Shown in pieces: positions 1,001-40,754 of a DNA stretch of 64,000 nt. The stretch comes from Polyangium sp. 15x6. Its GTDB lineage: Bacteria; Myxococcota_A; Polyangia; Polyangiales; Polyangiaceae. The notes beneath the pieces were generated by a model. It was not told the origin of the DNA. It searched no databases and worked only from the letters and a program-made list of their open reading frames with translations. Within the stretch, counting starts at the first letter, position 1, and each line of letters opens with the position of its first letter. The translations under genes were made by a program, and so were the position numbers. The stretch is taken from the NCBI RefSeq assembly GCF_029960785.1, contig NZ_JASBQE010000039.1, positions 1-64,000 of the forward strand, written 5' to 3'.

Positions 1001-2326
1001 ATGGGCCGCCGTCGCACTGGTAACATATTGCCCGAGGGTGACCATTACGTGGCTCGCGTCCTTCTGGACGGTCGCTACGTGCGGATCCACCTCTCCCCGG
1101 GCATGTCCGAAGCGCGCGCCCGTGAGTCTGCGCAGTTCTACACGGACAATCCCGACCGGGCACGCGCACGCCTTGAAGAGCAGGCGCGCGAGCGCACCAA
1201 AGCCGCACCCATACCGAAGGGCGAGACCTTCGCAGAGTACCTCGAACGGTGGCTGAAAGACCGCGACGAGCGCGGCTACTCGAACGTAGGAAGCGACCGT
1301 TCGGCGTTCAAGCTGCACGTCCTGCCGCACATCGGCACAAAGCCGATCACAGCGATCACGCGTGGAGACCTTGAAAAGCTCGTGCAAGCCCTCGACGGGC
1401 AGATCGCCCGAAAGGAGTATTCATGGCAGAGCGTGTCGAAGCTATGGCTTGCCGTCGGAAAGCTCTTCAAGGATGCGTCCGCCTCCAAGAACCTCGCGCT
1501 GCGCGTGCGCGCGGATAACCCGGCGCTTGGCATCACGCCCCCCGACCGGGGGACCGAGAAGTCAAAAGCCTACCTCTATCCGGACGAGTTCCTGAAACTC
1601 GCATCGTGCGAAGGTGTAGACCTGGAATTGCGACGCCTCTACACGCTCGCAATTTATCTCTATTGCCGCGTCTCGGAAGTGCTGCAACTGAGGTGGACAG
1701 ACATCGATCTGGAACACGGCGTCGCGCACATCCGGCGCAGCTACGATCGCCAGCGGAAGCAGGAGAAGGGCACGAAGGGCAAGCGCCCGCGTGGGTTCCG
1801 GATAGAGCCGAACCTGCTCCCCCTGCTGCACGTGCTGTACGCGGAGCGCGATGACAGCGGGTTCGTGATACGCGTCCGAAATTGGGCGATGGCCCGGCGC
1901 TTCCGCAAGGCCCTGACGCAGGCCGGAATCACCCGGCCGGATCTCTTCATTGCCGACGAACTACACAAGCGTATTACTTTCCACGATCTTCGTGCCACAG
2001 GTTTGACCTGGATGGCATTGCGCGGCGACACGCCGCACGTCATCATGCAGCGCGCTGGACATCGGAATTTCGAGACGACGATGCTCTGCATTCGCGAGGC
2101 GGAGTCGGTGACGGGCAACGTGGGCGAGCCCTTCCCGCCGTTGCCCGCCTCCCTTCTCGGCTCGACCATGGAGCCCCCCCGGGCGAGCGGGGATTTGTCG
2201 GGGAATCTGTCGAGGGTTCCGCGCAGCGTGCGCGAAACCGCTGGAATCATAGGGCAAGCGAAGCGATCGCTATATCCTTCTCCAGGATGTGGTGTGCCTG
2301 GTACGATCCGCCGAGGTTCTTCGTGA
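1001..2326 (+). CDS. Tyrosine recombinase (phage-type integrase) with catalytic Tyr replaced by Cys
   Basis: A 441-residue tyrosine recombinase: an N-terminal arm-binding region (about 1-70), a SAM-like core-binding domain (about 75-180) and a catalytic domain (about 190-375). Catalytic residues visible are R223 (in CRVSE), H328 and R331 (HDLR) and H354 (AGH). The nucleophile should lie nine residues after H354, in a TTxxYIREAE motif. Here it reads TTMLCIREAE, with C363 encoded by TGC at 2087-2089, one base from a Tyr codon. The ATG at 1001 follows GGAGG with good spacing. The last 25 or so residues after the usual FPPLPASLLG end are a read-through tail, and the 3' end overlaps the antisense toxin pseudogene. 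Predicted to be unable to form the covalent DNA intermediate unless Cys can substitute. Confidence 0.9.
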   Translation: MGRRRTGNILPEGDHYVARVLLDGRYVRIHLSPGMSEARARESAQFYTDNPDRARARLEEQARERTKAAPIPKGETFAEYLERWLKDRDERGYSNVGSDRSAFKLHVLPHIGTKPITAITRGDLEKLVQALDGQIARKEYSWQSVSKLWLAVGKLFKDASASKNLALRVRADNPALGITPPDRGTEKSKAYLYPDEFLKLASCEGVDLELRRLYTLAIYLYCRVSEVLQLRWTDIDLEHGVAHIRRSYDRQRKQEKGTKGKRPRGFRIEPNLLPLLHVLYAERDDSGFVIRVRNWAMARRFRKALTQAGITRPDLFIADELHKRITFHDLRATGLTWMALRGDTPHVIMQRAGHRNFETTMLCIREAESVTGNVGEPFPPLPASLLGSTMEPPRASGDLSGNLSRVPRSVRETAGIIGQAKRSLYPSPGCGVPGTIRRGSS

Positions 2327-4498: not shown

Positions 4499-7400
4499 GT
4501 GAAGAAAAGGACCCTTCTCGCCTGCCTCCCCGGCATTCTCTTTCCATTCGGGTGCGGCGGCGCGGTCACGGACGAGATTGTCCCGGAGGCGCGGCGCGCG
4601 CCCCTCGGAGCGGCCGTCTTCTGGCAAAACATCGTCGAAGCCGAGGCCGACGGAAACCTCCTCCGTCGGCCGAACGGCGCGGGCTGGAATGCGGGCGCCT
4701 CCTCGACGCAATCCATCGTCGCGGGTGATGGATTCGTCGAGCTCTCCACCGGCGAGACCGACCGCGACAAAATGGCCGGCCTGAGCCACGGCGACGACCA
4801 CCAGAGCTTCGGCGACATCGATGACGCCTTTTATCTGCGGGGCGACGGCGCCTTCGACATCTACGAGCAAGGCTATAGCCAGGGCACCTTCGGCACCTAC
4901 CAGCCCGGGGACGCGCTCCGCGTCGAGGTCCACGACGGCGTGGTGCGATACCGCAAGAACGGGCTCGTCCTTCACACGAGCACGACCCCGCCGACCTATC
5001 CCCTCGTCCTCGACACGAGCCTCGCGAACGCCGGCGCGACCATCACCCAGGCGCAGATCGAGACCTGCACGCCCGGGGACACGAGCTGCATCCCCGACGT
5101 GTGGTGGAGAAACGTCCGGTATGCGACCGCCGACGGAAACGCGCTCACCCGGGACCCTCACATCGGCGCCAGTTGGTCCTCCGGTGCTTCCTCCGTGCAA
5201 TCGATCAGCGACGGGGATGGGTTCGTAGAATTCTCCACCGACGAGACCCACCTCGACAAGATGGCCGGCCTGAGCCACGGCGACGACCATCAAAGCTTCG
5301 GCGACATCGATTACGCCTTTTACCTCCGCAGCGACGGCGCCCTCGACATCTACGAGCAAGGTTACAGCCAGGGCACCTTCGGAACCTACCAGGTCGGCGA
5401 CGCCTTCCGCGTCGAGGTCCAGGACGGCGTGGTGCGATATCGCAAAAACGGCATCGTCCTTCACACGAGCACGACCCCGCCGACCCATCCCCTCGTCCTC
5501 GACACGAGCCTCGCCAACGGCGCCGGGACGATCACCGCCGCGCAGATCGTCTCCTGCGCATCCGGCGACACGAACTGCATCCCCGACGTATGGTGGAAAA
5601 ACGTCCGGTATGCGACCGCCGACGGAAACACGCTCACGCGGGACCCTCACATCGGCGTCAGCTGGTCCACCGGTGCTTCCTCCGTGCAATCGATCAGCGA
5701 CGGCAATGGCTTCGTCGAATTCTCCACCGCCGAGACCCACCTCGACAAGATGGCCGGCTTGAGCCACGGCGACGATCATCAAGGCTTCGGCGACATCGAT
5801 TACGCGTTCCATTTGCGAAGCGACGGATACCTCGACATTTACGAGCAGGGCTGGCACCAGGGCACCTTTGGAAGCTACCGGGCAGGCGACATCTTCCGTG
5901 TCGAGGTCGAGGACGACGTGGTGCGTTACCGCAAAAACGGGCTCGTCCTTCACACGAGCACGACCCCGCCCGCCTATCCCCTCGTCCTCGACACGAGCCT
6001 CGCCAACGGCGCCGGGACGATCACGGACGCCCGCGTCGTGAGCTGCGCGGCTCTCGACACGACGTGCATCCCCGCCGTGTGGTGGAAAAACGTCCGTTAT
6101 GCCGCGACAAACGGGACGACCCTCACGCGAAACCCGCACGTCGGCACCAGCTGGTCCGCCGGGGCCTCCTCGGTCAAGGACATCGACGAGGGCGACGGTT
6201 ACGTCCAGTTCTCCACGAAGGAAGCCAATCTCGACAAGATGGCCGGCCTCGGCCACGGCGACGCCCACCAGGGCTTCGGGGACATCGAGTACGCGCTCCA
6301 CCTGCGCAGCGACGGGTTCCTCGACATTTACGAGCAGGGCTGGCACCAGGGCACGTTCGGCGCATACAAGGCCGGCGACGTCTTCCGCATCGAGGTCCAC
6401 GACGAACAGGTGCGATACCGAAAAAACGGCCGCGTCCTGCACACGAGCCTGACGCCCCCCACGTATCCCCTCGTCCTCGACACGAGCCTCGCGAACGGCA
6501 GCGGGAGCGTCACCCGCGCGCGCGTCGTGCGTTGCGCCCCTGGGGACACGCTCTGCATGCCCGCGGTGTGGTGGAAAAACGTCCGTTATGCGACTGCGGG
6601 CGGGCGCTCGCTCACGCGCGACCCGCACGTCGGCACCAGCTGGTCCGCCGGCGCGTCCTCGGTCCAGGAAATCGGGCCCGAGGGCGGCGCCGTGGAGTTC
6701 TCCACCAAGGAGACGAACCTCGACAAGATGGCCGGTCTGAGCGAGGGCGATACCGATCAAGGGTATGTGGACATCGATTACGCGTTCCACTTGCGGAGCG
6801 ACGGCTACCTCGACATCTACGAGAGAGGCTGGCAGCAAGGCACATTCGGCACCTACCAGGCCGGCGACGTCTTCCGCGTCGATGTGCAGAACGACGAAGT
6901 GCGTTATCTCCACAATGGCGCCTTGCTCCGCACGAGCCCGACGCCGCCGACGTATCCGCTCGTGCTCGACACGAGCCTCGCGAACGGCGCCGGGACGATC
7001 ACGAATGCGCGCCTCGGCGACGGCGACGAGCCGACGCCGGAGAGCACGTGCACCGCCCTCCTGGACCTCCCGGCTTGTAATGCCGCGGGCTGCGCGTGGT
7101 ACTCCTGCGACGAGAGTTGCCATTCGCAGGACGCCGATCCCGAGCTCGTTTGTCCGGGTGGCGGAGCCTGCAACGACGACGGGACGGGGTGGACCCCGCC
7201 TTCGGGCGCGACCACCAAGCCTGCCGGCTTCGTGCTCGTCCCTCCCTGGGCCGACGGCGGCGAACACCTCGTGCTGAACGGGTATGGCCGGCACTGCCAC
7301 AAGAACAAGGACCATTATTCGCTCGACTTCGATATGGATACGGGAACGGCCGTGTTCGCCGCGGCGCCCGGAACGGTCATGAAGGCGGGTTATGCAGGAA

Positions 7401-8803
7401 AGCTCGGGTGCACGTTCAAGAGCTACGGCAACTACGTCCTCATCGACCACCACAACGGCTATCAGACGCTCTACGCCCACCTGAACACGATCGCCGTCGA
7501 GGAGAATGATCCGGTCGACGTCACGACGCGGATCGGGACCTCCGGCGACAGCGGCGGCTTCGATTGTACGGGCACCTGCGCGTCTTCGTGCCAGGAAACC
7601 TCGACGCCGACGTGTGAATGCGATCCGACCCCCCAGGACACGCCGCATCTCCACTTCACGCTCTACCAGGGCGCGACCTTGCCCTCGACCGGCAACCCTG
7701 TCGATCCCATGCCCTTCCTGAGCTGCACCAAAAATGGTGGACAGGCCCCGTGCAGCGACATCGACCCCTGGGACGATAAACTGCAAAAGGACCGGGCGCC
7801 GGTGGCCCTCGTCGAGGACCGTGCAGCGAACACGCTGCACCTCTTCGCGCGCGGAGAATCCAGCAAGATGTGGCACTGTGAGCTCACCCGGAACGGCGCG
7901 ACACTCCTTTGCAATGGCTGGACCGACATCGGCGGAGTCCTCACGACGGGGCCGGAGGCCGTATGGGACAGCGTGGCCGGTGGACCACGCGCCTTCGTTC
8001 GCGGCATCGACGGCCAGATTTGTGATGCGAGCCGACCGAGCCCCGGGAGCGCCTTCCACTGGACATGCGCGAGCAACAGCGACATGCGCGGTCGCCCCAA
8101 GCCCTTCTTCAACGCGGCCGCTCAGCGCACCGACGTCTTCTTCCGCGCCTCGAACGATGGCCTGTACACCATCGCCAGGAGTGCCCAGGGATATGGCTCG
8201 ATCACGCAGCTCGCGGGCACTCTATCGAGCGAGCCGACGGTCTCCGGCTGGGGGATTCCCCAGGTGTTTTTCGTGGATGGATCCCATCGACTGAACACCC
8301 TCGCGCCCAATGCCACCGGCGCATGGCCCGCGGCGGCAACCTACGTCGGCGATAGTGGTGTCGTCGTCGACAGCCCCGCGGCGCTGGTCCAGGTCCACGC
8401 GGCGCCTGATTCCAGCCAAGCTCATGTCTTTGCGCGTGACGGCGACAATGACGCCATGATCAGCGCGGCGTATTTCTTCACGACCCCGCCGAGCCAGGCT
8501 TCGTGGTCCAATCACGCGAGGATCCTGACAGCGACGCCAGCGCTCGGGCTCAACGTCGACGGCCGCCTCAGCGTGCTCGTGCGCGACACGTCGAACCGGA
8601 TCCGCGAACATGTCGAGGGGCAATTCGGCGATCCCATGGGGACCACGGTCGCCACCAGCACGCCCGTGGTGAGCCGCGTCGGGGATGGCCGCCTCGTCGT
8701 CTTCATCTGGTCCGGGACCGAGCTCTACTACGCCGTGCAAACCGACGCAGGCTCGACGGTTTGGTCCCCCTGGACCAAGCTCGCTTTGCCGGCGGGTTTC
8801 TGA
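4499..8803 (+). CDS. Lipoprotein with five SPRY-like repeats and an M23 (LytM) peptidase domain
   Basis: 1434 residues. The GTG at 4499 is preceded by AAAGGA, and the N-terminus is a short signal with a probable lipidation Cys at 19 (PFGC, a weak lipobox). Five tandem domains of about 163 residues follow (nucleotides about 4600-5095, 5098-5585, 5586-6073, 6074-6562 and 6563-7020). Each opens with VWWKNVRYATA-type sequence and carries GDGFVEFST, DKMAGLSHGDD, DIYEQG and VLDTSLAN motifs; they look like concanavalin/SPRY-type carbohydrate or protein binding modules. After a Cys-rich linker comes an M23 domain with the zinc ligands H939 and D943 (HYSLD) and the HxH pair H1050/H1052 (PHLHF). The rest resembles a beta-propeller lectin (PLL-like). 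Probably a surface peptidoglycan hydrolase or adhesin used on self or prey walls. Confidence 0.85.
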   Translation: MKKRTLLACLPGILFPFGCGGAVTDEIVPEARRAPLGAAVFWQNIVEAEADGNLLRRPNGAGWNAGASSTQSIVAGDGFVELSTGETDRDKMAGLSHGDDHQSFGDIDDAFYLRGDGAFDIYEQGYSQGTFGTYQPGDALRVEVHDGVVRYRKNGLVLHTSTTPPTYPLVLDTSLANAGATITQAQIETCTPGDTSCIPDVWWRNVRYATADGNALTRDPHIGASWSSGASSVQSISDGDGFVEFSTDETHLDKMAGLSHGDDHQSFGDIDYAFYLRSDGALDIYEQGYSQGTFGTYQVGDAFRVEVQDGVVRYRKNGIVLHTSTTPPTHPLVLDTSLANGAGTITAAQIVSCASGDTNCIPDVWWKNVRYATADGNTLTRDPHIGVSWSTGASSVQSISDGNGFVEFSTAETHLDKMAGLSHGDDHQGFGDIDYAFHLRSDGYLDIYEQGWHQGTFGSYRAGDIFRVEVEDDVVRYRKNGLVLHTSTTPPAYPLVLDTSLANGAGTITDARVVSCAALDTTCIPAVWWKNVRYAATNGTTLTRNPHVGTSWSAGASSVKDIDEGDGYVQFSTKEANLDKMAGLGHGDAHQGFGDIEYALHLRSDGFLDIYEQGWHQGTFGAYKAGDVFRIEVHDEQVRYRKNGRVLHTSLTPPTYPLVLDTSLANGSGSVTRARVVRCAPGDTLCMPAVWWKNVRYATAGGRSLTRDPHVGTSWSAGASSVQEIGPEGGAVEFSTKETNLDKMAGLSEGDTDQGYVDIDYAFHLRSDGYLDIYERGWQQGTFGTYQAGDVFRVDVQNDEVRYLHNGALLRTSPTPPTYPLVLDTSLANGAGTITNARLGDGDEPTPESTCTALLDLPACNAAGCAWYSCDESCHSQDADPELVCPGGGACNDDGTGWTPPSGATTKPAGFVLVPPWADGGEHLVLNGYGRHCHKNKDHYSLDFDMDTGTAVFAAAPGTVMKAGYAGKLGCTFKSYGNYVLIDHHNGYQTLYAHLNTIAVEENDPVDVTTRIGTSGDSGGFDCTGTCASSCQETSTPTCECDPTPQDTPHLHFTLYQGATLPSTGNPVDPMPFLSCTKNGGQAPCSDIDPWDDKLQKDRAPVALVEDRAANTLHLFARGESSKMWHCELTRNGATLLCNGWTDIGGVLTTGPEAVWDSVAGGPRAFVRGIDGQICDASRPSPGSAFHWTCASNSDMRGRPKPFFNAAAQRTDVFFRASNDGLYTIARSAQGYGSITQLAGTLSSEPTVSGWGIPQVFFVDGSHRLNTLAPNATGAWPAAATYVGDSGVVVDSPAALVQVHAAPDSSQAHVFARDGDNDAMISAAYFFTTPPSQASWSNHARILTATPALGLNVDGRLSVLVRDTSNRIREHVEGQFGDPMGTTVATSTPVVSRVGDGRLVVFIWSGTELYYAVQTDAGSTVWSPWTKLALPAGF

Positions 8804-8881
8804 ACGCTCCGGCCAAAAACTAGCCACCTCCCCACGCCCCCGGCTACGCTCCCCTGGCCCCTCGTGGGCTCGGGTGACCTC

Positions 8882-9271
8882 ATGGCCGTTCAAATCGCTA
8901 CCGGCGCCACCGCAATGTGCAGCTTCGGCATGGCGCCCGCCTCGATCATGGTCCTGCCTGCGAACATGGTCAATGCGACCACGTCCGCCGCGAACATCGC
9001 CGACATGGTGACCGCGACGAACGTCCTGCCTTTTGGCGCTTGCACATCGCTCGCGAATCCCACGGTCGCTTCGGCCACCGCCGCCGCCTTGGGCGTCCTC
9101 ACCCCCATGCCCTGCGTCCCCGTCCCCGCGGGCACGTGGCTCCCCGGCAGCACCAAGGTCATGCTGAAAAGCCTGCCCACCCTCCACAACTCCTGCAAGC
9201 TCATGTGTTCGTATGGCGGCGTGATCCAGATCCTCAGCCCGGGCCAGTTCAAGGTCATGGCCGGCGGATGA
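8882..9271 (+). CDS. DUF4280 PAAR-like protein
   Basis: 129 residues from ATG 8882; a GTG at 8864 is an alternative. The family pattern is plain: CSFGMAPASIMVLP near the N-terminus, then NVLPFGACTSLANP, ALGVLTPMPCVPVP, a WLPGSTKV strand and a final CSYGGVIQILSPGQ. DUF4280 proteins are PAAR-like caps associated with type VI secretion or related contractile injection systems, where they sharpen the spike tip or adapt an effector. Four conserved Cys are present. The stop is 7 bp before the start of the CHAT-STAND gene, so the two are probably translated from one message. The T6SS structural genes are 14 kb away on the other strand. Confidence 0.88.
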   Translation: MAVQIATGATAMCSFGMAPASIMVLPANMVNATTSAANIADMVTATNVLPFGACTSLANPTVASATAAALGVLTPMPCVPVPAGTWLPGSTKVMLKSLPTLHNSCKLMCSYGGVIQILSPGQFKVMAGG

Positions 9272-9278
9272 GCCCCCC

Positions 9279-12200
9279 GTGACCGCGCTCTCGTCCGGGA
9301 ACCTGCTCCTCGAATTCACCCGCACCGCGCAGGCCGACGAATCGTTTGTCTTGCCGGACGGCGAGGTCACGTATGTCCTGCGCACCGAGGGCGGCGGCGC
9401 CGAGACCATCACGATCGACTGGACGCCCGCGCTCTTCGCCGACCTCGACGCCGTCCGCCGCCCCGGCTGCGATCCCGCCACAGTCCAGCGCCTCGGCCGC
9501 GCCCTCCGGCGATTCCTCGCGCCCGCGGGATGGGCTCGCCACGAAGAAGACATCCTCGCCGCCTCCTCGCGCGGCGATCCGGTCAGGATCACGTTCCGCT
9601 CGAATGCCGCGGAGCTTTATGCGTTGCCCTGGGAGCTCCTGACGCTCAAATCGAGCGGCCAGCACCTCGGCGAGCTCCCCGAGGCCCTCGTCCGTTATGC
9701 CTGGCCCGAGAGCACCACGCGCCCCGAGGATCCCTCGCCTTTGCCCGAGGGCGGGCGAATCCTCTTCGGCTGGTCCGCCGTCGCCGGCGCCGTGCCCCTC
9801 GCCGAGCAATCGAATGCCCTCCGCGCCGCCGCCGAGCGTGGTCATCATTCCTTCGATCCCGCCCGCGACGTGATCGACCACCTCTCGCTCGGCCGCCTCT
9901 CCCGCGCCCTCGAAAAAGCCTCCGCGTCGGGAGAAAACATCAACGTCCTCCACCTCCTCTGCCACGGCACCCAGGTCGGACAAACCCACGGCCTCGCCTG
10001 GGACGCGGACGACGGCAGCGGCGAGCGCGTCTTGCTCGACGCGGGCAAACTAAGGCAGCTCCTCGCACCCCACGCGGGTCGCATTCGCCTCGTCGTGCTC
10101 TCCGCCTGCGACAGCGGCAATCCCGGGCAGATCGGCAATCACCTCGGGAGCGTCGCCCAGAACCTCCACCAGGCCGGCATCCAGGCCGTCGTCGCCTCCC
10201 GCTTCCCCCTCTCCGTCCCGGGCTCCATCACCTTCACCGAAACCTTTTACGACAAACTCCTCGTCGAGCCCGCGTCCGTCGAAGACGCGCTCCTCGCCGC
10301 CCGGCAGCGCCTCCTCCGCGAAGGCGCGGGAAGGCTCGACTGGGCGAGCCTCACCCTGCACGCGCGCCCCGAGGACGGCGACGATACCCGCCCGATCGCC
10401 TTTCGCCCTTATCGAGGCCTCCTCGCCTTCCACGCCGCGCATCGCCGGTTCTTCTTCGGCCGCGAGGCCGAAATCGAGGAGACGCTCGCCGACCTCGCGG
10501 CCCTCGCCGCCTCGGGAAAACCTCGTTTCCTCGTGGTCGCGGGCGCCTCGGGCACCGGTAAATCCTCCATGGTCCTCGCCGGCGTCGTCCCGCGCCTGCT
10601 CGATCGCGGCGCCGCGCGCGAAGGTGCCGTGGACGCCGAGGATTTCAACCGCGCGATCGAGCGGCTCGCGCACCTCCTCGGGCGCAGGAGCTTGGGCGCC
10701 ACGGCGCAACAAGCGCTCTCCGTGCTCCACCGCGAAATCACGACGCTCGCCACGGCCGCGGGCGGCGCGTGGGAGGCCGTCGTCATGCGCCCCGGCGCTT
10801 CTCCGCTCGCCGCCCTCGAATCGGCGCTCGCGGCGCGCCGCGACAAGGACATTCCTTTCCTCCTCGTCGTCGATCAATTCGAGGAAATCTTCACCCACGT
10901 ACACGATCCTGCCGAGCGGCAGGCGTTCGTCGCCGAGCTCTGGAAGCGCTGCGGCGGCGAGGACGCCATCCATTGCGTCACCAGCATGCGCGTCGATTTC
11001 GTGGGCGAGTGCGGGCAGATCGTGCTCGACGCGAGCACGGGCCTAAGGCTCGATCGCGTCGCCTACGACGAGGCGCACCGCGTCTTCGTCGCGCAGATGG
11101 GCCCCGCGCAGCTCCGCACCGTGATCGAGGAGCCCGCGCGCAAGGTCGGCCTCTCCCTTTCCCAGGGGCTCGCGAGCCGCATCATCGCCGAGGTCGGCGC
11201 CGAGCCCACGGCCCTGCCGCTCGTCGAATACGTCCTCGACCTCCTCTGGCAAAAACGCCAGGGAACAACCCTCGACGCGGCCCGGTACGAGGAGCTCGGC
11301 GGCGTGTTCGGCGCGCTCGAACGAATGGCGGACGCCGTCGTCGACGAGCTCGACGAGCCCTCGCAAAAGCTCGCGCGCCGGCTCTTCTCGCGCCTCACCC
11401 ATTTCGGCGAGGGCGGCGCCTCGAACACGCGCCGCCGCGTCCCCCTCGCGCGCATCCTCCCCGCCGATCCGGAGAAGCGCGCGCGCTTCGAGGCCTTGCT
11501 CGAACGATTCATCGACGCGCGCCTCGTCTCGCGTCAGGACGAAGGCGGCCGCATCGTGGTCGAGGTCGCGCACGAGGCCTTGCTCCGGCGGTGGAAACGC
11601 CTCGCGGCCTGGCTCGCCGAGGATCGGGCGCGCGTCGTCGAAATCGGCAAGCTCGAGCGCTGGGCCGCCGATTTCAAGGCCCACGTCGCCCTCCTTCGCG
11701 GCGCCCAGCTCGGGTATGCCAAGCAGATCCGCGCGCAGGCCGAGGACGAGCTCGACGACGACACGCGCGCCATGATCGAGGCGAGCGAACACGCGGAGGA
11801 AGCCGAAGCCGAAAAAGCACGCGCGAAGCAGAGCGTGGAGCGGCGCAAGCTCTACGCCGGCGCCGCGGGCGCGGTGATCGTGGCCGTCGCCATGACGCTC
11901 CTCGCGCTCCAGACGACCCGGGCCAAAGCCGAGGCCGACGCCTCGAGGAAGCAGGCGGAGCAGGGTCGCGCCGAGGCTGAAAAAGCGCACGAGCAGGCCG
12001 ACGCGGAGCGCGAGATCGCCGAAAGGCAATTGCGCATCGGCGGCGCCTTGAACCTCGTCGCGCGCAATCAGCACGCGGCCGCCGCGTCCGTCGTGTCGGA
12101 GCGAAGCGGCCCGTTCCCCGAGCTCCTCACGGATTTCAGGCACCTCTCGCTGGCGCAGCGCCTCCTCGCTTTGCCCATTCCGAAGGTCACGCTCGCCGGG

Positions 12201-14279
12201 CACCACGAGAAGTTGTGGCACGCCGCCTGGTCCCCGGATGGACGCCGCTTCGTCACGGCCTCGGAGGACAAAGTGGCCTACCTCTGGGACGGCAATGGCC
12301 GGGGCAAACCCATCGCCTTGCGGCACGACGGGCCGCTCACCTCGGCCGTCTTCGACGCCCAGGGGCGCCGCGTGCTCACCTCCTCCACGAATGGCGTCGC
12401 GAAGATCTGGGACGTCTCCGGCCCGGCGCCCCGCGTCCTCTCCGAGCTCCGCGGCAAGACGCGCGGCTTATGGACGGCCGCCTTCTCCCCCGACGGGACA
12501 CGCGTGGCCACCGCGACGGTCGAGGGCGCGATCGAGATGTGGGACCTCTCCGCGGTCACCGGCCCCGTCCTCGAAACCAGTTTGACCGGGCACACGCGCG
12601 TGGTCTCGTGGATCGAATTCGATCCCTCGGGCGAGAAGCTCGTGAGCTCCTCCTGGGACCGAACAGCGTGCATCTGGGACGTCCGGAGAGGGACACGCGC
12701 CTGCCTCGAAGGGCACACGGGCCCCGTCATGTCGGCCGCATTTTCCCCCGACGGCAAGGTCGTCGTCACCGCTTCGACCGACGGCACCGCGCGCATCTGG
12801 GACGTCGCGACCCGCAAGGAGATGGTTGCCCTGCGGGGCCATTTGGGCCCGCTCAACCAGGCGGTCTTTCATCCCAAGAGCAGCCGCGTCGTCGCCACGG
12901 CGAGCGACGACAACACGGTCCGATTCTGGACGAAAGAGGACGTGGGGCCGGGCGCGCGCGCTGCCGGGGTCGCCTCCTACACGGAGCTCGCGGACCTGGA
13001 TGGCCACGAGGCCGACGTCACCACCGTCGCCTTCTCGCCGGACGGAGAGCGGCTCCTGACGGCCTCCTGGGACGAGACGGCGCGCATCTGGGACCTCGCG
13101 CGCCTGCCGCGGCGCGTCCTTCCACGGATCCTCGGGCATTACGTGACGGGCGCGAGCGAGAGCCCGACCCAGGACCACCTGCTCCAGACCACGCCCGAGG
13201 GCGAGCTCGCCCTGTATCGCCTGCCTCCGAATCCCGAGGTCTACGAGGGCGTCCACCGGCTCGGCCTCCTCTCCCATGGAAAGAGGCGAATCCTATCGGT
13301 TGCGTGGAGCCGCGACGGGAGCCGCCTCGTCACCGGCGACGAGGTGGGCGGCGTGGCCATCACGCCCATCGAGCCTCGCACCGCGCCCCCGTCGCTCCCC
13401 GTCCTGCACACGCGAATGCTCCCCGCGCATCACCAGGCGCCCATCCTCGCGCTCGCCTGGAATGCGGACGGCAACCAATTCGTCAGCGTCGCCGCCGAGA
13501 AGGCGCCGCTCGTATGGGACGCGAACCATCCCGAACGTCCCCCGATCCCCGTCACGGCCTCCGCCGAGGGATGCGAGGATCCCGGCGCCTCCGCGGCACG
13601 TGCGCAAGTTTCTGCGAATTCGGGCGACTTCACGTCCGTCGCGTGGAGCGGCAAACCGGGCGCGCGCCATATCGTCCTTGGTCGCGAAGACGGCTGCGCC
13701 TGGTGGGTCGACCTCGATGGCCGGGAAAAACCCGTGGTGCTCGGCCGCCACCAAGCCGCACTCACCGCCGTCGCCTTGTCACCCGATGGCGAGCGCGTCG
13801 CCACGGCCTCGCAGGACAGGACCGTGCGCGTCTGGAAACGCGACGGCACCTACGTCGAGCTCGCGCATCCGGCGCCGCTCCTCTCCGTCGCGTTCGATGC
13901 GCGCGGCGAGCGCGTGATCACGCGGGCCCGGGACAACACGGTCAACGTGTGGAGGGTCGACGGTTCCGGCCAGGTGTTCGCCCTGGCAAACGACGCCGCG
14001 ACCTTCCCCATTGCAGCCTTCGACGTGAAGGGAAATGGAATCCTCACCGTGGACGCGCGTGGCTTCCTCCAGCGCTGGAACGCCGAGCCCGCCGCCATCG
14101 TCGCGAGCCTCGAGCGCGCGAACGACGACTGCGCCACCGCGGCGCTCCGCGAGCGTTACCTGGCCGAGGCCGAGGACGACGCGATCAAGGGCTGCCGCGC
14201 GTGCGCCGAAAAGCAAGGGCTCGACCCGGACAATTGCACGCACGACCTGAAGACCGGCGCGCTCGGGCCCCGGAAATGA
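9279..14279 (+). CDS. CHAT caspase-like protease fused to a STAND NTPase, membrane helix and WD40 propellers
   Basis: 1666 residues from GTG 9279, downstream of GGCGGATGAG. Domains in order: CHAT protease (about 1-365) with catalytic H229 (LCHG) and C277 (SACDSG); STAND-type NTPase (about 375-760) with Walker A GASGTGKS (K428) and Walker B LLVVDQFEE (D532); a helical arm; one membrane helix at about 857-877 followed by a charged coiled coil; and about 12 WD40 repeats (985-1620) with IWDV/VWDA ends, plus a short Cys-containing tail. The architecture is that of a signal-activated protease: the propeller senses, the STAND module oligomerises on nucleotide, and CHAT cleaves a target. The neighbouring DUF4280 protein and second caspase-like protease are the obvious candidates for partner and substrate. 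No key residue is missing. Confidence 0.9.
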   Translation: MTALSSGNLLLEFTRTAQADESFVLPDGEVTYVLRTEGGGAETITIDWTPALFADLDAVRRPGCDPATVQRLGRALRRFLAPAGWARHEEDILAASSRGDPVRITFRSNAAELYALPWELLTLKSSGQHLGELPEALVRYAWPESTTRPEDPSPLPEGGRILFGWSAVAGAVPLAEQSNALRAAAERGHHSFDPARDVIDHLSLGRLSRALEKASASGENINVLHLLCHGTQVGQTHGLAWDADDGSGERVLLDAGKLRQLLAPHAGRIRLVVLSACDSGNPGQIGNHLGSVAQNLHQAGIQAVVASRFPLSVPGSITFTETFYDKLLVEPASVEDALLAARQRLLREGAGRLDWASLTLHARPEDGDDTRPIAFRPYRGLLAFHAAHRRFFFGREAEIEETLADLAALAASGKPRFLVVAGASGTGKSSMVLAGVVPRLLDRGAAREGAVDAEDFNRAIERLAHLLGRRSLGATAQQALSVLHREITTLATAAGGAWEAVVMRPGASPLAALESALAARRDKDIPFLLVVDQFEEIFTHVHDPAERQAFVAELWKRCGGEDAIHCVTSMRVDFVGECGQIVLDASTGLRLDRVAYDEAHRVFVAQMGPAQLRTVIEEPARKVGLSLSQGLASRIIAEVGAEPTALPLVEYVLDLLWQKRQGTTLDAARYEELGGVFGALERMADAVVDELDEPSQKLARRLFSRLTHFGEGGASNTRRRVPLARILPADPEKRARFEALLERFIDARLVSRQDEGGRIVVEVAHEALLRRWKRLAAWLAEDRARVVEIGKLERWAADFKAHVALLRGAQLGYAKQIRAQAEDELDDDTRAMIEASEHAEEAEAEKARAKQSVERRKLYAGAAGAVIVAVAMTLLALQTTRAKAEADASRKQAEQGRAEAEKAHEQADAEREIAERQLRIGGALNLVARNQHAAAASVVSERSGPFPELLTDFRHLSLAQRLLALPIPKVTLAGHHEKLWHAAWSPDGRRFVTASEDKVAYLWDGNGRGKPIALRHDGPLTSAVFDAQGRRVLTSSTNGVAKIWDVSGPAPRVLSELRGKTRGLWTAAFSPDGTRVATATVEGAIEMWDLSAVTGPVLETSLTGHTRVVSWIEFDPSGEKLVSSSWDRTACIWDVRRGTRACLEGHTGPVMSAAFSPDGKVVVTASTDGTARIWDVATRKEMVALRGHLGPLNQAVFHPKSSRVVATASDDNTVRFWTKEDVGPGARAAGVASYTELADLDGHEADVTTVAFSPDGERLLTASWDETARIWDLARLPRRVLPRILGHYVTGASESPTQDHLLQTTPEGELALYRLPPNPEVYEGVHRLGLLSHGKRRILSVAWSRDGSRLVTGDEVGGVAITPIEPRTAPPSLPVLHTRMLPAHHQAPILALAWNADGNQFVSVAAEKAPLVWDANHPERPPIPVTASAEGCEDPGASAARAQVSANSGDFTSVAWSGKPGARHIVLGREDGCAWWVDLDGREKPVVLGRHQAALTAVALSPDGERVATASQDRTVRVWKRDGTYVELAHPAPLLSVAFDARGERVITRARDNTVNVWRVDGSGQVFALANDAATFPIAAFDVKGNGILTVDARGFLQRWNAEPAAIVASLERANDDCATAALRERYLAEAEDDAIKGCRACAEKQGLDPDNCTHDLKTGALGPRK

Positions 14280-14305
14280 TACCGTCCCTGTGAATCGAGG
14301 ACGCC

Positions 14306-16018
14306 ATGCCCGCGAATGACCTCCACCTCCTCCTCAGCCACGACGACGACGAGGGTGGCGCCTTCCTCGAAGGCGGCTTGCCCGCGGACGCGGCCGCGCA
14401 GCACGAAGAGCGCCCCGAGGCGCGCCCCGGCCCGACGCACCTCTGGGACGAAGGAGACGACCCGGACGACCTCGTCGCCCAGCGCTGGGGCGTGATCGTA
14501 CCGGAAGGCCAAACGGGCGATCGACTGCTGGAGCTCGCGCGTCCCCTCCTCGAAGCGCGCCGCGCGGCCCAGGGGGGCCACGAAATCAAGGTGTTCCGCG
14601 CGCCCGCGCGCCTCGACATGGCGGGCGCCGCGCGCTGGCGCAAGGATGTCTTCGATCGGGGCGCCGACCTCGCCGTCGATCTGCCGCGTTATCAGCTCAT
14701 CCTCGGCGATCTCGATCAGGTCCCCTTCGCCATCCAGCAGGTCCAGCAATCGGACGGGTTCGTCGGGCGAATCGCCTTCCCGGACGAACGCGGCTACGAG
14801 GCCTACGTCCACAAGATCCTCGCCGCCGAGCGCGCGGCCGCGCTGCCTTCGCCCCCGCACGCCACGTTTTACACCGTGCACGACGGCACGGCGGCGACGA
14901 CGGCGACGTACCGCGCGCTCGTGCGTCCGGGGCTCGATCTCGTGCGCCGCCGCCTCGAGGCGGGGCAATTCCCCGCGAGCACGATTGAAGAGCGGGGGCG
15001 TGCCGACGTGCCTTCCCCCGACGAGCTCTTCGAGGTCGCGTCCCGCCCCGACCCGGGCGTGCTCTTCAGCGTCAGCCACGGCGCCGGCGCGCCGCGCGAG
15101 GGCTGGAAGAACTTCGCCGAGCAACGCGCGCGTCAAGGGGCCATGCGATTCGGCCGCGAGGGCACGTTCGCCGCGAGCGAACTCGGCGAGCGCCCCTTCG
15201 CGCCGGGCGGCGTCTGGTTCATGGTCGCCTGTTATGGCGGCGGCACGCCGGATCGCAGCGCCTACCGCCACTGGCTCGAACGATTGCAGAAGCTCGGCCA
15301 TTACGGCGGCGAGGCCGAGGAGGTCCTCAAGGCACTCCCTCGCAATGCGCCGCCCTTCATCGCGTCGCTCCCCCGCGCGGCGCTGGCGAACCCGAACGGC
15401 CCCCTCGCATTCCTCGGGCACGTCGATCTCGCCTGGACCTACAGCTTCGAGGAGCGCGATGCGGGCACGCCGATCGCCCGCCCGGCGCGCTTCATGTCGG
15501 TCGTGCGTTCGCTCGTGCGTGGCGACCGCGTCGGCCTCGCGTTCCGCGAGCTCGTGCGATTCTTCGAGCAGGCGAACACGGAGCTCACGAGCCTCTACGA
15601 CCACGAGGCGAGCGGAGGCCGGCGCGACGAGGTGCGGCTCGGGCATCTCTGGATGCTCCGGCAGGACCTCTCGGGATACATCCTCCTCGGCGATCCCGCG
15701 GTGCGCCTGCGTGTTCCAAAGGCGCAAAAGAGCACGCCCGTCGAGCCCCCCGCCCCGACGGCGGCGAACATTCTCGGGTTTGGCCAGGCACAGGCGCCCG
15801 CGCCTGCCCCCGCGCCTGCCCCCGCGCCGATTGCGCAGGTCGAACCCGTCGCGCTTCCCATGGAGCTCGAGCGCCTCGAAGAGGCCTTCGGCCACATGCT
15901 CGTGGGCGAGCGCGGGCACAAGGAGATCGCCAAGGAATACGGCATCGAGCTCGGAGAGCTGCGCAAGCTCTTCGACCGGTACAAGAAGGGTGGGCGCGGA
16001 TCACTCGGGCATACCTGA
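14306..16018 (+). CDS. Caspase/gingipain-like (C25-type) protease homologue
   Basis: 570 residues, starting 26 bp after the CHAT-STAND stop at an ATG preceded by GAGG. The middle of the protein carries a His motif (SVSHGAG, H258) and, 51 residues later, a Cys motif (VACYGGG, C309), the His-Cys dyad order and spacing of caspase-fold peptidases such as gingipain-like C25 and CHAT. The 30 or so residues before position 70 are acidic. After about 460, an Ala-Pro linker of (AP)n type leads to a small helical C-terminal domain (about 515-565) that resembles a winged or HTH helix set. There is no signal peptide. Its position directly after a CHAT-STAND gene suggests a protease cascade or a protease with a decoy or substrate relation. 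The exact family is uncertain. Confidence 0.65.
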   Translation: MPANDLHLLLSHDDDEGGAFLEGGLPADAAAQHEERPEARPGPTHLWDEGDDPDDLVAQRWGVIVPEGQTGDRLLELARPLLEARRAAQGGHEIKVFRAPARLDMAGAARWRKDVFDRGADLAVDLPRYQLILGDLDQVPFAIQQVQQSDGFVGRIAFPDERGYEAYVHKILAAERAAALPSPPHATFYTVHDGTAATTATYRALVRPGLDLVRRRLEAGQFPASTIEERGRADVPSPDELFEVASRPDPGVLFSVSHGAGAPREGWKNFAEQRARQGAMRFGREGTFAASELGERPFAPGGVWFMVACYGGGTPDRSAYRHWLERLQKLGHYGGEAEEVLKALPRNAPPFIASLPRAALANPNGPLAFLGHVDLAWTYSFEERDAGTPIARPARFMSVVRSLVRGDRVGLAFRELVRFFEQANTELTSLYDHEASGGRRDEVRLGHLWMLRQDLSGYILLGDPAVRLRVPKAQKSTPVEPPAPTAANILGFGQAQAPAPAPAPAPAPIAQVEPVALPMELERLEEAFGHMLVGERGHKEIAKEYGIELGELRKLFDRYKKGGRGSLGHT

Positions 16019-16019: not shown

Positions 16020-17702
16020 ATGCGTTCGCTCCCGCGAATCCTCTCGCTCTCGCTCGCCGCGCTCCTCGCGTTCGCCGCCCCCGCGCGCGCGGACGACATC
16101 GCCTTGCCGCGATTCCAGCCCGCCTTCGCCGGCGACCGGATGCTCGGCGTGCAGTCTCCCTACGCCGCCGGTGATTTCACCTTCCACGGCATGTTGCTCG
16201 TGGATTACGCCAGGAACCCCTACGTCCTCAAGACGGACGACGGCGCCACGGCGTCGGAGATCGTGGGCCGGCAGCTCTTCCTCCACGCGAACGCCACCTA
16301 TTCGATGTGGAATCGCCTGTCGGTGAACCTCGACGTGCCCGTCGCGCTCCTGCAGACGGGCGACGCCGACACATCCCCGACCACCGCCGCTTTCGGCGAC
16401 ATCCGCCTCGGCGCCCGCGTCCGCCTCTACGGCGCGTACGAGGACCCGTTGCAGGTAGGGATCGGCGGCTATTTCTGGATCCCCACCGGCACGGGCGCCT
16501 ACGTCACCGATGGCTACGTGCGTGGCCTGCCGCAGCTCCTCCTCGGCGGACAGCTCGGGGACCGCTGGGTCTGGTCCTTCGCCGTGGGCCCCGAGATCCG
16601 CGACAAACGCGCGACGGACGACGGCGTCGTGCTGGGCACGGCCATCACCGGCGGCGCCGGCATCGCGGTCCTCCTCGGGCAGGACCGCGCCCTGCAAATC
16701 GGCCCGGAGCTCGACATCTCGCAGGTGCTCCTCGACGCGACGAGCCAGAATCGCAACATCGAGCTCTCGCTCCAGGGCCGATACCGGTTCCTCGACAACT
16801 ATGAGGCGGGCATGAGCATCGGCGCCGGCCTGAGCGAGGGTGTCGGCACGCCTCTGTTCCGCGTGGTCGCGATGGTCGCCTACACGCCCTTCCTCTCGGA
16901 GCGCCTGCGGGACAGCGACGGAGACGGGATCTTGAACGATCAGGACGCCTGCCCCGAGGTCCGCGGCGATCGCAGCGTGTACGCCGTGGAGAATGGGTGC
17001 CCGTCCGTGTACCGCAAGCGCGCGAACGACGCCGACGGCGACGACGTCATCGATGATCAGGACGCCTGCCCGCGTGTCTACGGTATTCCGCAGAGCGACG
17101 AGACACGAAATGGCTGCCCGCTCGACGACGCCGAGGAGGCGGCGCTGCTCGAACAATACCGGGACAACCGCCCGGATTCGAAGGGCGACACCGACGGCGA
17201 CGGCCTCGCCGACGACGTCGACGCCTGCCCCGCGGAGAAGGGCGCGCCGAGCGAGGTGGCCGCGAAGAACGGCTGCCCGGAGCTCGTGCGGGTCACGGAC
17301 GGCGAGATCGTCCTCTTGCGCGAGCTCCTCTTCGACACGGGCCGGGCCACGTTACGCCCCTCGTCCCGGCAGATGCTGGAAGAGGTCGCCGAGGTCCTCT
17401 TCCAGCACCCCGAAATCACGCGGATCGAGGTGCAAGGCCACACCGACAATCGAGGAACGTTGCCGCGCAACGACGCGCTCGCACTGCAGCGAGCCCAGGC
17501 CGTGCGCGACCTGCTCGTTCGCCGCAGCATCGATCCGAAGCGCATCGTCATCAAAGCCTTTGGCCCGAACGCCCCGGTCGCGACGAACACGACGCCGGAG
17601 GGGAGGCAACGCAACCGGCGCGCGACGTTCGTCATCCTGGAGAAAACCCCTTCGCCCGCGCCTCCTTCTCCTTCCCCTTCAGGCGCCACGCCGGCGCCGT
17701 AG
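16020..17702 (+). CDS. OmpA-family outer-membrane protein with thrombospondin type-3 repeats
   Basis: 560 residues from ATG 16020, one base after the previous stop. A clear signal peptide ends at PARA/DD (about residue 25). Residues 30-300 look like a beta-barrel of the type common in myxobacterial OmpA-like proteins. Three calcium-binding thrombospondin type-3 segments follow (RDSDGDGILNDQDACP, NDADGDDVIDDQDACP, GDTDGDGLADDVDACP). Then comes an OmpA peptidoglycan-binding domain (about 430-545) with the LLFDTGRATL and VQGHTDNRG motifs, and a Pro/Ser-rich tail. It should link the outer membrane to peptidoglycan. Its start is almost coupled to the protease gene, so it may belong to the same transcript. 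Confidence 0.9.
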   Translation: MRSLPRILSLSLAALLAFAAPARADDIALPRFQPAFAGDRMLGVQSPYAAGDFTFHGMLLVDYARNPYVLKTDDGATASEIVGRQLFLHANATYSMWNRLSVNLDVPVALLQTGDADTSPTTAAFGDIRLGARVRLYGAYEDPLQVGIGGYFWIPTGTGAYVTDGYVRGLPQLLLGGQLGDRWVWSFAVGPEIRDKRATDDGVVLGTAITGGAGIAVLLGQDRALQIGPELDISQVLLDATSQNRNIELSLQGRYRFLDNYEAGMSIGAGLSEGVGTPLFRVVAMVAYTPFLSERLRDSDGDGILNDQDACPEVRGDRSVYAVENGCPSVYRKRANDADGDDVIDDQDACPRVYGIPQSDETRNGCPLDDAEEAALLEQYRDNRPDSKGDTDGDGLADDVDACPAEKGAPSEVAAKNGCPELVRVTDGEIVLLRELLFDTGRATLRPSSRQMLEEVAEVLFQHPEITRIEVQGHTDNRGTLPRNDALALQRAQAVRDLLVRRSIDPKRIVIKAFGPNAPVATNTTPEGRQRNRRATFVILEKTPSPAPPSPSPSGATPAP

Positions 17703-18762: not shown

Positions 18763-19040
18763 GGCGCCTCGCCGGGGCGCCGCCCCGGACCCCGCGGGGG
18801 CTGTTCGCCCCTCGACCCGAACCAGCGCAAGCGCTGGACCATTTGGGGAAGAACTGCGCGATGCGCAGTTCTTCCCACGGGCCCGTGGCAAGACCCAAGG
18901 CAGCGTTGCCGATTGAGGCCTGTTCGATGAACTGCGCATCGCGCAGTTCATCGACCCCGGGTCCAGCGCTTGCGCTGGTCCGGGTCCAGGGGCGGATAGC
19001 CCCTGGTGGGGCCTGGGGCAACGCCCCAGCGAAGCGGCTC
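18763..19040. repeat. Large nested inverted repeat centred on 18900
   Basis: Two palindromes occur on each side of a single axis at 18900: CCAGCGC-AA-GCGCTGG at 18822-18837, mirrored by CCAGCGC-TT-GCGCTGG at 18963-18978; and a 14-bp-stem hairpin at 18846-18876 (GGGAAGAACTGCGC, loop GAT), mirrored at 18924-18954 (TCGATGAACTGCGC, loop ATC). Outside these, GC-rich arms (about 18763-18820 and 18980-19040) match each other imperfectly in inverted orientation. An extra palindrome CCACGGGCCCGTGG lies at 18875-18888. It fills the whole gap between two plus-strand genes and resembles a BIME made of two head-to-head repeat units; it could also serve as a bidirectional terminator. Confidence 0.8.
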
Positions 19041-19104
19041 CCAGATGAGACCCACGCTCAGCGCCAGGGTGGATCCGGCCGAGGCCGGCGGGCGTACCCT
19101 CGGA

Positions 19105-19920
19105 ATGAGCACGCCTATTTCCAGCCGCTTTCATTTCACCCACCTCCTCTTGCTCGCCGCCACCTGCGCGGGCGCGACCGCGTGCCTCGCCGCCGGGGAC
19201 GACGCCGTGCGTATCGGCGACGCCCCCGAGAGCGGCATTCAGGGCATCACGATCGTGCCCACGAACCCCACGTCGCCGCCCCCTCCGCCTCCACCTCCGC
19301 CGCCCCCGTGCGTCACGAACGTGAGTTCGAATCCTGCCTTCGGCTGCCTCACCGCGGCCTGGATTTATGGCCCGGGTGTGGGGCTCGAGTCCATGCTGAG
19401 CTCGGCCGTGGGGTGCGGCTGCGAGGCCGAGATCGTCACGACCGGCGTGGTGCCCGCCGCGTGCAACGTGCAACGCGTCGCCGTGAGCTGCGGGAGCGGC
19501 ACACCTCCGTTCAACGCCGTCTCGCCCATTCCTCCGGGCGAGTATCCGTGTGAAGGCCTCACGAACGACGACGGCACCCCGAGGGTCATCGAGGTCAATA
19601 CGAACGAGCTCCCGTTCATGGGCATCCACATCGATCCGGACAACAACGGCCAGCTCTGCGACGTCACCCTCGACCCCTTCGTGGGGCCCATCGATCGCGA
19701 GATCAAGGAAAAGTGCTCCAGTTGCCACACGGACAACGAACCCCAATGGTGGCCCGAGGAGACCGACACGGAAGAAGAAAGCTGCCCCTACTGCCACGCG
19801 AACAACGAGCCCCCATGGCGGCCCCAGGTGGCCGCCATGGCGGACGCCGAGTCCCTCACACGAGGCCCCCGCCCCGCGTCAGGGCGCTTCCGGCACGCAG
19901 ACTTTGCCCGATTTCGGTGA
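19105..19920 (+). CDS. Secreted protein with two CxxCH motifs
   Basis: 271 residues from ATG 19105. The N-terminus is a signal sequence (hydrophobic LLLLAATCAGATAC), with Cys residues that could be lipidated. An 11-Pro run (about residues 62-72) separates it from a Cys-rich domain with GCLTAAW, GCGCEAE and VSCGSG. Near the C-terminus two CxxCH motifs occur 34 residues apart (CSSCHTDN and CPYCHANN), each followed by a Trp-containing NEPQWW or NEPPW segment, as in a duplicated small module. CxxCH is the covalent haem c attachment motif, so a di-haem periplasmic protein is possible; a zinc-binding role is the alternative. The last 42 bp overlap the convergent gene. Confidence 0.7.
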   Translation: MSTPISSRFHFTHLLLLAATCAGATACLAAGDDAVRIGDAPESGIQGITIVPTNPTSPPPPPPPPPPPCVTNVSSNPAFGCLTAAWIYGPGVGLESMLSSAVGCGCEAEIVTTGVVPAACNVQRVAVSCGSGTPPFNAVSPIPPGEYPCEGLTNDDGTPRVIEVNTNELPFMGIHIDPDNNGQLCDVTLDPFVGPIDREIKEKCSSCHTDNEPQWWPEETDTEEESCPYCHANNEPPWRPQVAAMADAESLTRGPRPASGRFRHADFARFR

Positions 19921-23124: not shown

Positions 23125-23580
23125 TCAGGGCGCGCCCGGCACGCACGTCTCGCCGGACTTGCTGACGCGGCACAACCTGCTCCGCTCGATGCGGACTTCG
23201 ATCTTCTCCGGCGGCGGCGACGACAGGAGCACCCGCCACGCGTCGCGGTCCGGCCGTTCGAGGAGCGCGTAAATCGCGAGCGTCCCCTTCTCCGGCACCG
23301 GCACCTTGATCACCTGCGCCTGCCCGGGCAGCACCACCACCGATTTCTGCACCGACTCGTCGGGCGTGGTCACGCGTGCCGCGACGGACTCGTACGACTC
23401 CGCGCCGAACGTCTTTTCGTCGATCGCGCGGGCGAGCACGTAGACCGAGCGCGCGCCATTCGCGTCGGCCGCCGGACGGAGCACGAGCTCCACCTGGGAA
23501 GCATTCGACGACGCGCAACCGGCCCCGAGCATCGAGGCGAGCAGCGCGGTCAGGCCGCAGAGGGAGGCGTGGCCTCGCAC
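23125..23580 (-). CDS. tssJ: Type VI secretion outer-membrane lipoprotein TssJ
   Basis: 151 residues using GTG 23580, which gives a compact lipoprotein signal (LLASMLGAGC) and begins 10 bp after the tssM stop. An ATG at 23616 would overlap tssM and spoil the signal. The mature part is a small beta-sandwich with the usual TssJ features: an Asn/Gly-rich first loop, a VVVLPGQAQVIKVPVP strand pair and a GTLAIYALLERPD strand before the end. TssJ anchors the TssJLM membrane complex in the outer membrane and contacts the periplasmic end of TssM, encoded just upstream. It is the last gene of the minus-strand T6SS transcript. Confidence 0.75.
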   Translation of the reverse strand: MRGHASLCGLTALLASMLGAGCASSNASQVELVLRPAADANGARSVYVLARAIDEKTFGAESYESVAARVTTPDESVQKSVVVLPGQAQVIKVPVPEKGTLAIYALLERPDRDAWRVLLSSPPPEKIEVRIERSRLCRVSKSGETCVPGAP

Positions 23581-23590
23581 GGGCGCAGTA

Positions 23591-27139: not shown

Positions 27140-27160
27140 CGCGCGCGCCTCCTCGCCGCC

Positions 27161-27511: not shown

Positions 27512-27523
27512 TCCCTCGGCACT

Positions 27524-29766: not shown

Positions 29767-29775
29767 CGTCCCCTC

Positions 29776-30357: not shown

Positions 30358-30363
30358 GGCCGA

Positions 30364-31998: not shown

Positions 31999-32020
31999 GG
32001 CCCGCCTCCGCCGGCGGAGC

Positions 32021-32380: not shown

Positions 32381-32407
32381 CGACGGCCTCCTCCGCGGTC
32401 CCTTCTA

Positions 32408-33682: not shown

Positions 33683-33694
33683 GGTTCGTCCCGG

Positions 33695-34264: not shown

Positions 34265-34299
34265 GGCCGCTCATCCTTTCCTGAATGCTCGATCCCGTA

Positions 34300-35946: not shown

Positions 35947-35961
35947 GATCGCTCCTCGACC

Positions 35962-37984: not shown

Positions 37985-37987
37985 GCG

Positions 37988-40673: not shown

Positions 40674-40754
40674 GAGGCGCCCGGGCAGACGAGCAGGGCG
40701 CACGCGGCGGCGCAAGTTTTCTGCGAAGCTCGGGCGCCGCGGCGGCGCGCTCGC

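Follow-up and report, generated by a model that had tools for sequence, protein, structure and literature searches.

A CHAT protease and a gingipain-fold cysteine protease encoded back to back beside type VI secretion genes in Polyangium

Gene content and predicted structures of the locus

We describe two adjacent protease genes of the soil bacterium Polyangium sp. 15x6 (Myxococcota), studied in a window that comprises the whole of a 64,000-nucleotide stretch of contig NZ_JASBQE010000039.1 from its 13.4-Mb assembly. The two open reading frames (ORFs) lie on the forward strand, 26 bp apart, and both show a coding-like GC content by codon position. As judged from Pfam matches, hydropathy and an AlphaFold model of residues 1-376, the first (9279-14279, GTG start) codes for a 1666-residue sensor protease in which a CHAT domain is followed by an nSTAND1 NTPase domain, a transmembrane helix and WD40 propellers. 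Sequence, model and conservation identify the product of the second (14306-16018, 570 residues) as a C25-like, or gingipain-fold, cysteine protease with a linker and a helix-turn-helix (HTH)-like tail. A 7-bp gap separates the start of the CHAT gene from a 135-codon DUF4280 gene for a PAAR-like spike-tip protein (8864-9271, forward strand; PF14107, 100.3 bits, cut-off 26.3), and a single base lies between the stop of the C25-like gene and the ATG of a gene for an OmpA-family outer-membrane protein (16020-17702, forward strand; PF00691, 83.2 bits). Given their shared strand and tight spacing, the DUF4280 and protease genes probably form one operon. An initial annotation of this DNA had proposed two caspase-fold enzymes encoded back to back, which is borne out by sequence, structure prediction and conserved dyads; its ORF coordinates, strand, 26-bp gap and all four dyad residue numbers also agree with ours. 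For comparison, a genome scan returned 332 confirmed relatives of the C25-like protein, and the best 80 of these, with DNA of up to 10 kb on each side, define the 74 loci referred to below.

The CHAT domain of the first protein (residues 98-360; 9570-10358, forward strand) is recognized by PF12770 with 71.2 bits (cut-off 24). Its dyad is formed by H229 (codon 9963-9965, forward strand) in the motif HLLCHG and C277 (10107-10109) in LSACDSG; in an alignment of 45 CHAT domains these two columns alone are invariant, and the H and C are kept in 74 of the 75 CHAT domains from the loci and the window, the exception being a fragment at a locus edge. It is followed by the nSTAND1 domain (residues 377-801; 10407-11681; PF20703, 320 bits), a single transmembrane helix predicted by a hydropathy scan at residues 858-876 (11850-11906), and the WD40 propeller region (approximately residues 970-1563; 12186-13967; 260 bits in nine stretches), all on the forward strand. 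The position of the helix between nSTAND1 and WD40 is alike in the three Polyangium orthologues scanned (L039-L041). As nSTAND domains use nucleoside triphosphates (NTPs), we take the CHAT-nSTAND half to be cytosolic, which would place the propellers in the periplasm.

The model of the CHAT half (residues 1-376) has a predicted local distance difference test score (pLDDT) of 91.7. Its best Z score among solved CHAT structures, 23.4, is reached both by Craspase TPR-CHAT (297 residues, 3.7 A) and by SAVED-CHAT (193 residues, 2.2 A), the latter with the lowest root-mean-square deviation and the highest identity (21%); separase reaches up to 21.6 and DdvA 16.9. The window CHAT sequence alone gave no real match in the PDB. 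A profile of the 45 CHAT domains, however, matches SAVED-CHAT (8tl0) there at E 6e-11 with the dyad H and C aligned, and the SAVED_CHAT model of PADLOC matches the window domain at 1e-30.

In the second protein the catalytic domain spans residues 52-472 (14459-15721, forward strand) and contains the dyad H258 (15077-15079) in SVSHGAG and C309 (15230-15232) in VACYGGG. The AlphaFold model built from a 73-row alignment has a mean pLDDT of 89.3. Foldseek ranked gingipains at the top for this model, and VIA-align placed RgpB (4ief; Z 26.0 over 302 residues, 3.4 A) and Kgp (Z 25.5) above all other rows, which include Csx29/Craspase (up to 16.6), separase (up to 16.4), SAVED-CHAT (13.4), DdvA (13.3), metacaspase (10.5) and caspase-7 (9.5). 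Thus the caspase-like (clan CD) fold of the initial annotation stands, but the nearest solved fold is that of gingipain and not of a caspase proper; with a Z of 9.5 for caspase-7 against 26 for gingipain, we reject a C14 caspase.

At the sequence level the window protein scores 13.2 bits against Pfam Peptidase_C25, below the cut-off of 23, which three of nine full-length relatives scanned pass (L072, 28.0; L034, 30.0; L106, 25.2) and six fail. Among eight relatives in plasmid records, those from Sinorhizobium, Planktothrix and Nostoc are labelled 'C25 family cysteine peptidase', and the family profile finds gingipain chains alone in the PDB, weakly (E 0.14 and 0.21). Of 91 C25-like sequences that are nearly full-length, 89 retain the dyad; the exceptions are L096 (N/G), which lies beside an intact copy, and L065 (H/S), with no CHAT match in its locus. 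A hydropathy scan (no signal-peptide program was used) detected no hydrophobic helix, so the protein is probably cytosolic. PADLOC gave no match for it at E 0.01. A viral origin found no support in one scan of viral contigs, which yielded 65 pattern matches and no relative among them.

Flanking the catalytic domain are an N-terminal segment and a C-terminal extension. The former (residues 1-26; 14306-14383, forward strand) has L8, L9, L10, P19 and G24 conserved in 60-66 of the 73 rows and is followed by a variable loop (residues 27-51) with low pLDDT at 39-47; segment and loop together are pro-segment-like and a candidate for a further place of processing. The extension consists, as the initial annotation had it, of an Ala/Pro-rich linker (residues 473-519; 15722-15862, forward strand), disordered with pLDDT below 50 at 488-511, and a small helical domain, the HTH-like tail (residues 520-566; 15863-16003, forward strand), whose three helices are confidently modelled (521-566; pLDDT about 96 for 521-560). 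The window tail scores 12.6 bits against HTH_29, below the cut-off of 28.1, and HTH_28 exceeds its cut-off solely in L072 among the relatives scanned. Tails occur in 47 of the 73 rows, the window included, and the linker of tailed rows measures 15-210 residues, Ala and Pro making up a median fraction of 0.375. As the tail is missing from the other 26 rows and linker length varies so widely, the tail is a dispensable module and the linker not a conserved site. Accordingly, the earlier suggestion that cleavage in the linker frees the tail receives no specific support: the sole shared feature that might mark a conserved cleavage site is a loose hydrophobic-GF motif in eight of the 47 tailed rows, again counting the window. 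This motif occupies window residues 488-493 (15767-15784) and also occurs at or near the extreme end of two tailless rows. We also considered the tail as a shared adaptor domain and rejected this, for all 18 strong tail matches in eight genomes (150 first-look candidates scored per genome) fall within C25-like genes, the matches outside them being weak and partial. Within the loci, tails outside recognized C25-like ORFs were seen in L083, where a 69-residue ORF at the locus edge has one, and in L100, in a 1153-residue metallophosphatase/peptidoglycan-binding protein.

Recurrence of the pairing and its gene neighbourhoods

A CHAT domain is present in 55 of the 74 C25-like loci, from several phyla. 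In these paired loci the median distance is 3.0 kb, with 44 pairs lying within 5 kb and 38 loci whose nearest CHAT shares the strand of the C25-like gene; on plasmids, all six loci fetched out of the eight records have a CHAT within 9 kb. The six Polyangium genomes sampled (about 75.6 Mb) contain 61 Pfam CHAT matches, a density that predicts about 1.7% per locus or 1.3 of the 74 by chance. The observed pairing is about 40 times above this expectation, a rough yardstick in that the density comes from Polyangium only and not from the other genera of the 74 loci. The CHAT profile that we built locally had no match in 16 stretches (about 282 kb) around type VI secretion system (T6SS) genes in nine other Myxococcota genomes. 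Furthermore, sequence distances among the C25-like proteins correlate with those among their CHAT partners: r is 0.63 for 37 pairs and 0.42 for 30 non-redundant pairs, values reached by none of 5000 permutations in either case, and 0.31 for 26 pairs from Myxococcota alone (six of 5000).

Several points qualify this association. Relatedness of the species may account for some of the correlation between distances. The 74 loci, drawn from the best 80 of the 332 relatives, are not mutually independent, as they include three Polyangium orthologues, four from Cupriavidus and several per genome, and the local CHAT profile was partly built from these very loci and may out-detect the Pfam count used as yardstick. 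In 19 loci the DNA examined, several times clipped on one side, contains no CHAT, so that the C25-like enzyme is at times encoded with no CHAT close by; L042, whose fragments cluster with CHAT genes, was left among these 19. The nearest CHAT lies on the opposite strand in 17 of the 55, and those pairs are therefore not one operon. Moreover, the C25-like protein is patchy in distribution, being found in eight of 97 near genomes and, counting some that match only weakly and in part, in 22 of the 377 phylum genomes. Taking both sides together, we consider it well supported and probable that the two enzymes constitute a functional pair.

The wider neighbourhoods were surveyed by clustering, and each recurrent cluster takes its name from Pfam scans of one to three of its members. 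Calcineurin-like phosphatases form a cluster of 14 loci. In Corallococcus, Myxococcus, Hyalangium and Archangium there recur a gene for an extracytoplasmic function (ECF) sigma factor (seven loci) and one for a zf-HC2/TPR/CHAT protein (ten loci); the representatives scanned in L095 are a protein with sigma-70 domains and a zf-HC2/TPR/CHAT homologue of the anti-sigma factor DdvA (8rot, E 2e-134). A CHAT-SIR2 gene occurs in L106 and a SIR2 gene adjoins CHAT in L110, with STAND NTPases in both. These phosphatase, sigma/anti-sigma, SIR2 and STAND neighbours point to regulation or conflict and defence over digestion. Eight loci from Cupriavidus, rhizobia and others have a neighbour whose one scanned representative shows a weak, sub-cut-off alpha/beta-hydrolase match. 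No sigma/anti-sigma pair was recognized among the window operon genes scanned.

The genome of strain 15x6 has two further arrangements of this kind. On contig C99 another C25-like gene (L147, 6207-9307), disrupted by a stop codon plus a shift of frame, unless this is an assembly error, lies directly upstream of an open CHAT gene. On contig C222 (L146, 5516-17117) two CHAT-WD40 genes in tandem, each of about 1613 codons, converge on a C25-like gene on the opposite strand.

Linkage to a type VI secretion system

On the reverse strand of the window, at 23125-38983, lies the core of a Francisella-like (IglI-type) T6SS, recognized with Pfam and NCBIfam through matches to the families IglE, DotU, TssF, gp25, TssK, TssC, TssB and IglI; the initial annotation had passed over this link, as it had the flanking DUF4280 and OmpA genes. 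Scores reach 244 bits for IglI (cut-off 100), 394 for TssC (271.5) and 312 for TssK (100), and Pfam VipA, DotU, TssF, gp25 and IglE_N are also above cut-off. The NCBIfam models for IglE and TssB stay below theirs, as does every match to the TssM-, TssG- and VgrG-like proteins of the core, which are weak. In PMC5014421, PMC5349215 and PMC11883445 DUF4280 proteins are treated as PAAR-like, and the window DUF4280 protein, beyond meeting PF14107, scores 58.9 bits against NCBIfam T6SS_IglG, below the cut-off of 200. The DUF4280, CHAT and C25-like genes are contiguous, with T6SS genes adjoining, in each of the six Polyangium genomes (the window's own, those of L039-L041, G001 and G005), and the T6SS core has no DUF4280 gene of its own in the three where the whole core was read (the window's own genome, G001 and G005).

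Outside the genus IglI is above cut-off in 12 genomes, of which we read nine Myxococcota clusters. Seven of these nine have a DUF4280 gene close to IglI or to the AMP-binding gene beside it, five of them clear and two divergent, partial and visible to an iterated profile only; the T6SS stretches of G048 and G017 yielded none. These stretches of the nine genomes contain no CHAT or C25-like matches. Among the DUF4280 proteins compared, the nearest relative of the window copy outside the genus is the T6SS-core copy of G083 (65% identity, support 90/86); the two other DUF4280 genes of the window's own genome encode proteins 55% and 42% identical to it. The simplest account is that the tip gene of Polyangium was relocated to the protease genes, or that the protease genes joined it. 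Homologues of eight T6SS proteins occur near only the three Polyangium loci among the 74. That the protease pair is coupled to the T6SS in Polyangium seems to us an evenly balanced proposition.

Elsewhere in the window, an AMP-binding enzyme gene (39024-40715) follows the T6SS core and has a homologue in eight of the nine other Myxococcota clusters. A 1434-residue protein (4499-8803, forward strand) has five tandem repeats of about 163 residues, starting near 41, 202, 365, 528 and 691, and then an M23 peptidase domain. A phage-type integrase gene (1001-2326, forward strand; PF00589, 61 bits) lies near the window start, and a 304-residue protein (19006-19920, forward strand) has weak multihaem-cytochrome-like matches, all below cut-off. 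No RNA or tRNA features were found in the window.

Comparison with known systems and a proposed mechanism

A close precedent is a SAVED-CHAT cascade in a type III CRISPR/cyclic-oligonucleotide-based antiphage signalling system (CBASS) setting, in which the target, according to what Steens et al. (2024) reportedly found, is a second caspase-like protease encoded downstream. The window CHAT resembles SAVED-CHAT in fold and in the profile match with aligned dyad, but its sensor is nSTAND1-WD40 on a membrane anchor and its partner is gingipain-fold. The window locus, on contig C208, has no SAVED domain, and contig C31 is the one place in the genome with SAVED. Across Myxococcota, 24 of 282 genomes have SAVED; we read 30 such loci, and in three of them (L120, L129 and L130) a CHAT domain shares the ORF. 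The 13-20 kb read around each of these three contains no C25-like match. Of their neighbours, two large ones are protein kinases, one matches a deaminase weakly, and no family was recognized for three ORFs by the third locus. Identity with the SAVED-CHAT system is hence rejected, on the grounds of the missing SAVED at the window locus and the missing C25-like gene near the three SAVED-CHAT loci. By analogy a serial cascade of the two enzymes is nevertheless plausible, SAVED-CHAT being cited, in a passage of PMC11229360, as working via a cascade of proteolytic activity.

The gingipains RgpB and Kgp offer the best solved fold for the second protein (Z 25.5-26.0 over 302-325 residues), at an identity of 12-15%. 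Gingipains, known from gum disease, are secreted, degradative enzymes with Ig-like and secretion domains; the window protein instead has the conserved N-terminal segment and the HTH-like tail, and has no hydrophobic signal by the hydropathy scan. Craspase TPR-CHAT (Csx29) and separase share the clan CD fold with both window proteases, but Craspase has TPR where the window protein has its nSTAND1-WD40 sensor. DdvA-type transmembrane anti-sigma factors are likewise membrane-anchored CHAT proteins (Z 16.9), and the homologue in L095 lies near a C25-like gene; the window protein differs by its nSTAND1-WD40 portion, and no zf-HC2 is seen among the matches listed for it (25 of 53). The VMAP/vWA ternary conflict systems, in the parts of Kaur et al. 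2020 (PMC7159879) that concern them, have two caspase-like proteins and a neighbouring alpha/beta-hydrolase. The likeness lies in the caspase-like pair and in the weak hydrolase match at eight other C25-like loci; no vWA, MoxR or VMAP was recognized in the window operon genes scanned (for the 1666-residue protein, among the same 25 of 53 matches), and the words 'C25', 'CHAT' and 'gingipain' are absent from the main text of that paper. CHAT and nSTAND1 are listed among the domains of diversified sensors in multicellular bacteria in a passage of PMC10907252. A literature search that covered few subscription journals returned no description of CHAT together with a C25 or gingipain-fold protease, and none that places one or the other among T6SS genes.

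We tentatively favour, at slightly under even likelihood for the whole, a reading in which a sensor-CHAT protease activates a gingipain-fold partner and, in Polyangium, this unit is coupled to the T6SS. What triggers the unit, in which order its enzymes become active, what they cut and to what effect we infer as follows. The two genes would encode one signalling unit, with a membrane-anchored sensor whose WD40 propellers lie outside and whose nSTAND1 NTPase switch and CHAT protease lie inside. Triggering of the sensor would lead to NTP-driven clustering and so to an active CHAT protease, which would act on the neighbouring cytosolic gingipain-fold protease, probably activating it by cleavage. 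That CHAT stands upstream of the C25-like enzyme in this order is itself a possibility that we rate just short of even. The gingipain-fold protease would then cut targets in the cell, perhaps to the point of cell death, with the HTH-like tail guiding or localizing it. Because the protease unit lies directly behind the PAAR-like tip gene, the Polyangium version could be tied to the Francisella-like T6SS and may gate tip production or firing on an envelope signal. A bolder form of this idea, an apoptosome-like relay of a WD40-nSTAND-CHAT initiator and a gingipain-fold executioner that directly controls the Francisella-like T6SS or is its payload, is doubtful; if true, a caspase-fold cascade would give proteolytic control or arming of contractile injection, with the tip gene outside the core.

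Other explanations of the same genes have to be weighed. It is rather unlikely that there is no cascade and that the enzymes work in parallel on a third protein, for example an anti-sigma factor, so as to switch on transcription: the ECF sigma and DdvA-like CHAT genes near C25-like genes in Corallococcus, Myxococcus, Hyalangium and Archangium and the HTH-like tail would suit this, whereas the window operon genes scanned include no recognizable sigma/anti-sigma pair. Both proteases might alternatively be T6SS cargo injected into prey, which we hold to be improbable, since the internal transmembrane helix and nSTAND switch of the first product are the architecture of resident sensors. C25-like/CHAT pairs also occur in loci of other genera that have neither DUF4280 nor homologues of the eight T6SS proteins in the DNA examined. 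What speaks for cargo is that effectors are often encoded immediately after a PAAR-like tip gene, together with the DUF4280 gene directly upstream, at 7 bp, with the T6SS core beside it, and the linkage of PAAR and effector genes described in part of PMC11883445.

An anti-phage or abortive-infection system ending in cell death, to which the T6SS neighbourhood would be incidental, appears quite improbable: the C25-like protein is missing from PADLOC at E 0.01, no viral-contig relative was confirmed in the one scan, and the tip gene belongs to the gene group of all six genus genomes. Its attractions are the nSTAND and SIR2_2 partners, the match of CHAT to PADLOC SAVED_CHAT and the caspase-pair conflict systems described in sections of PMC7159879. 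The notion that the C25-like enzyme is an ordinary degradative protease near CHAT by chance is scarcely credible, even though gingipains themselves act in that way, for the protein has no hydrophobic helix in the hydropathy scan, the pairing exceeds its yardstick about 40-fold and the distances correlate.

Pairs of caspase-fold proteases are already known in a few bacterial defence systems. A widespread pairing of CHAT and gingipain-fold proteases would provide a large natural set in which to ask if initiator-executioner relays operate in bacteria and what their substrates are, and with the Polyangium genes one can ask directly whether a relay of this sort is coupled to a contractile injection machine.

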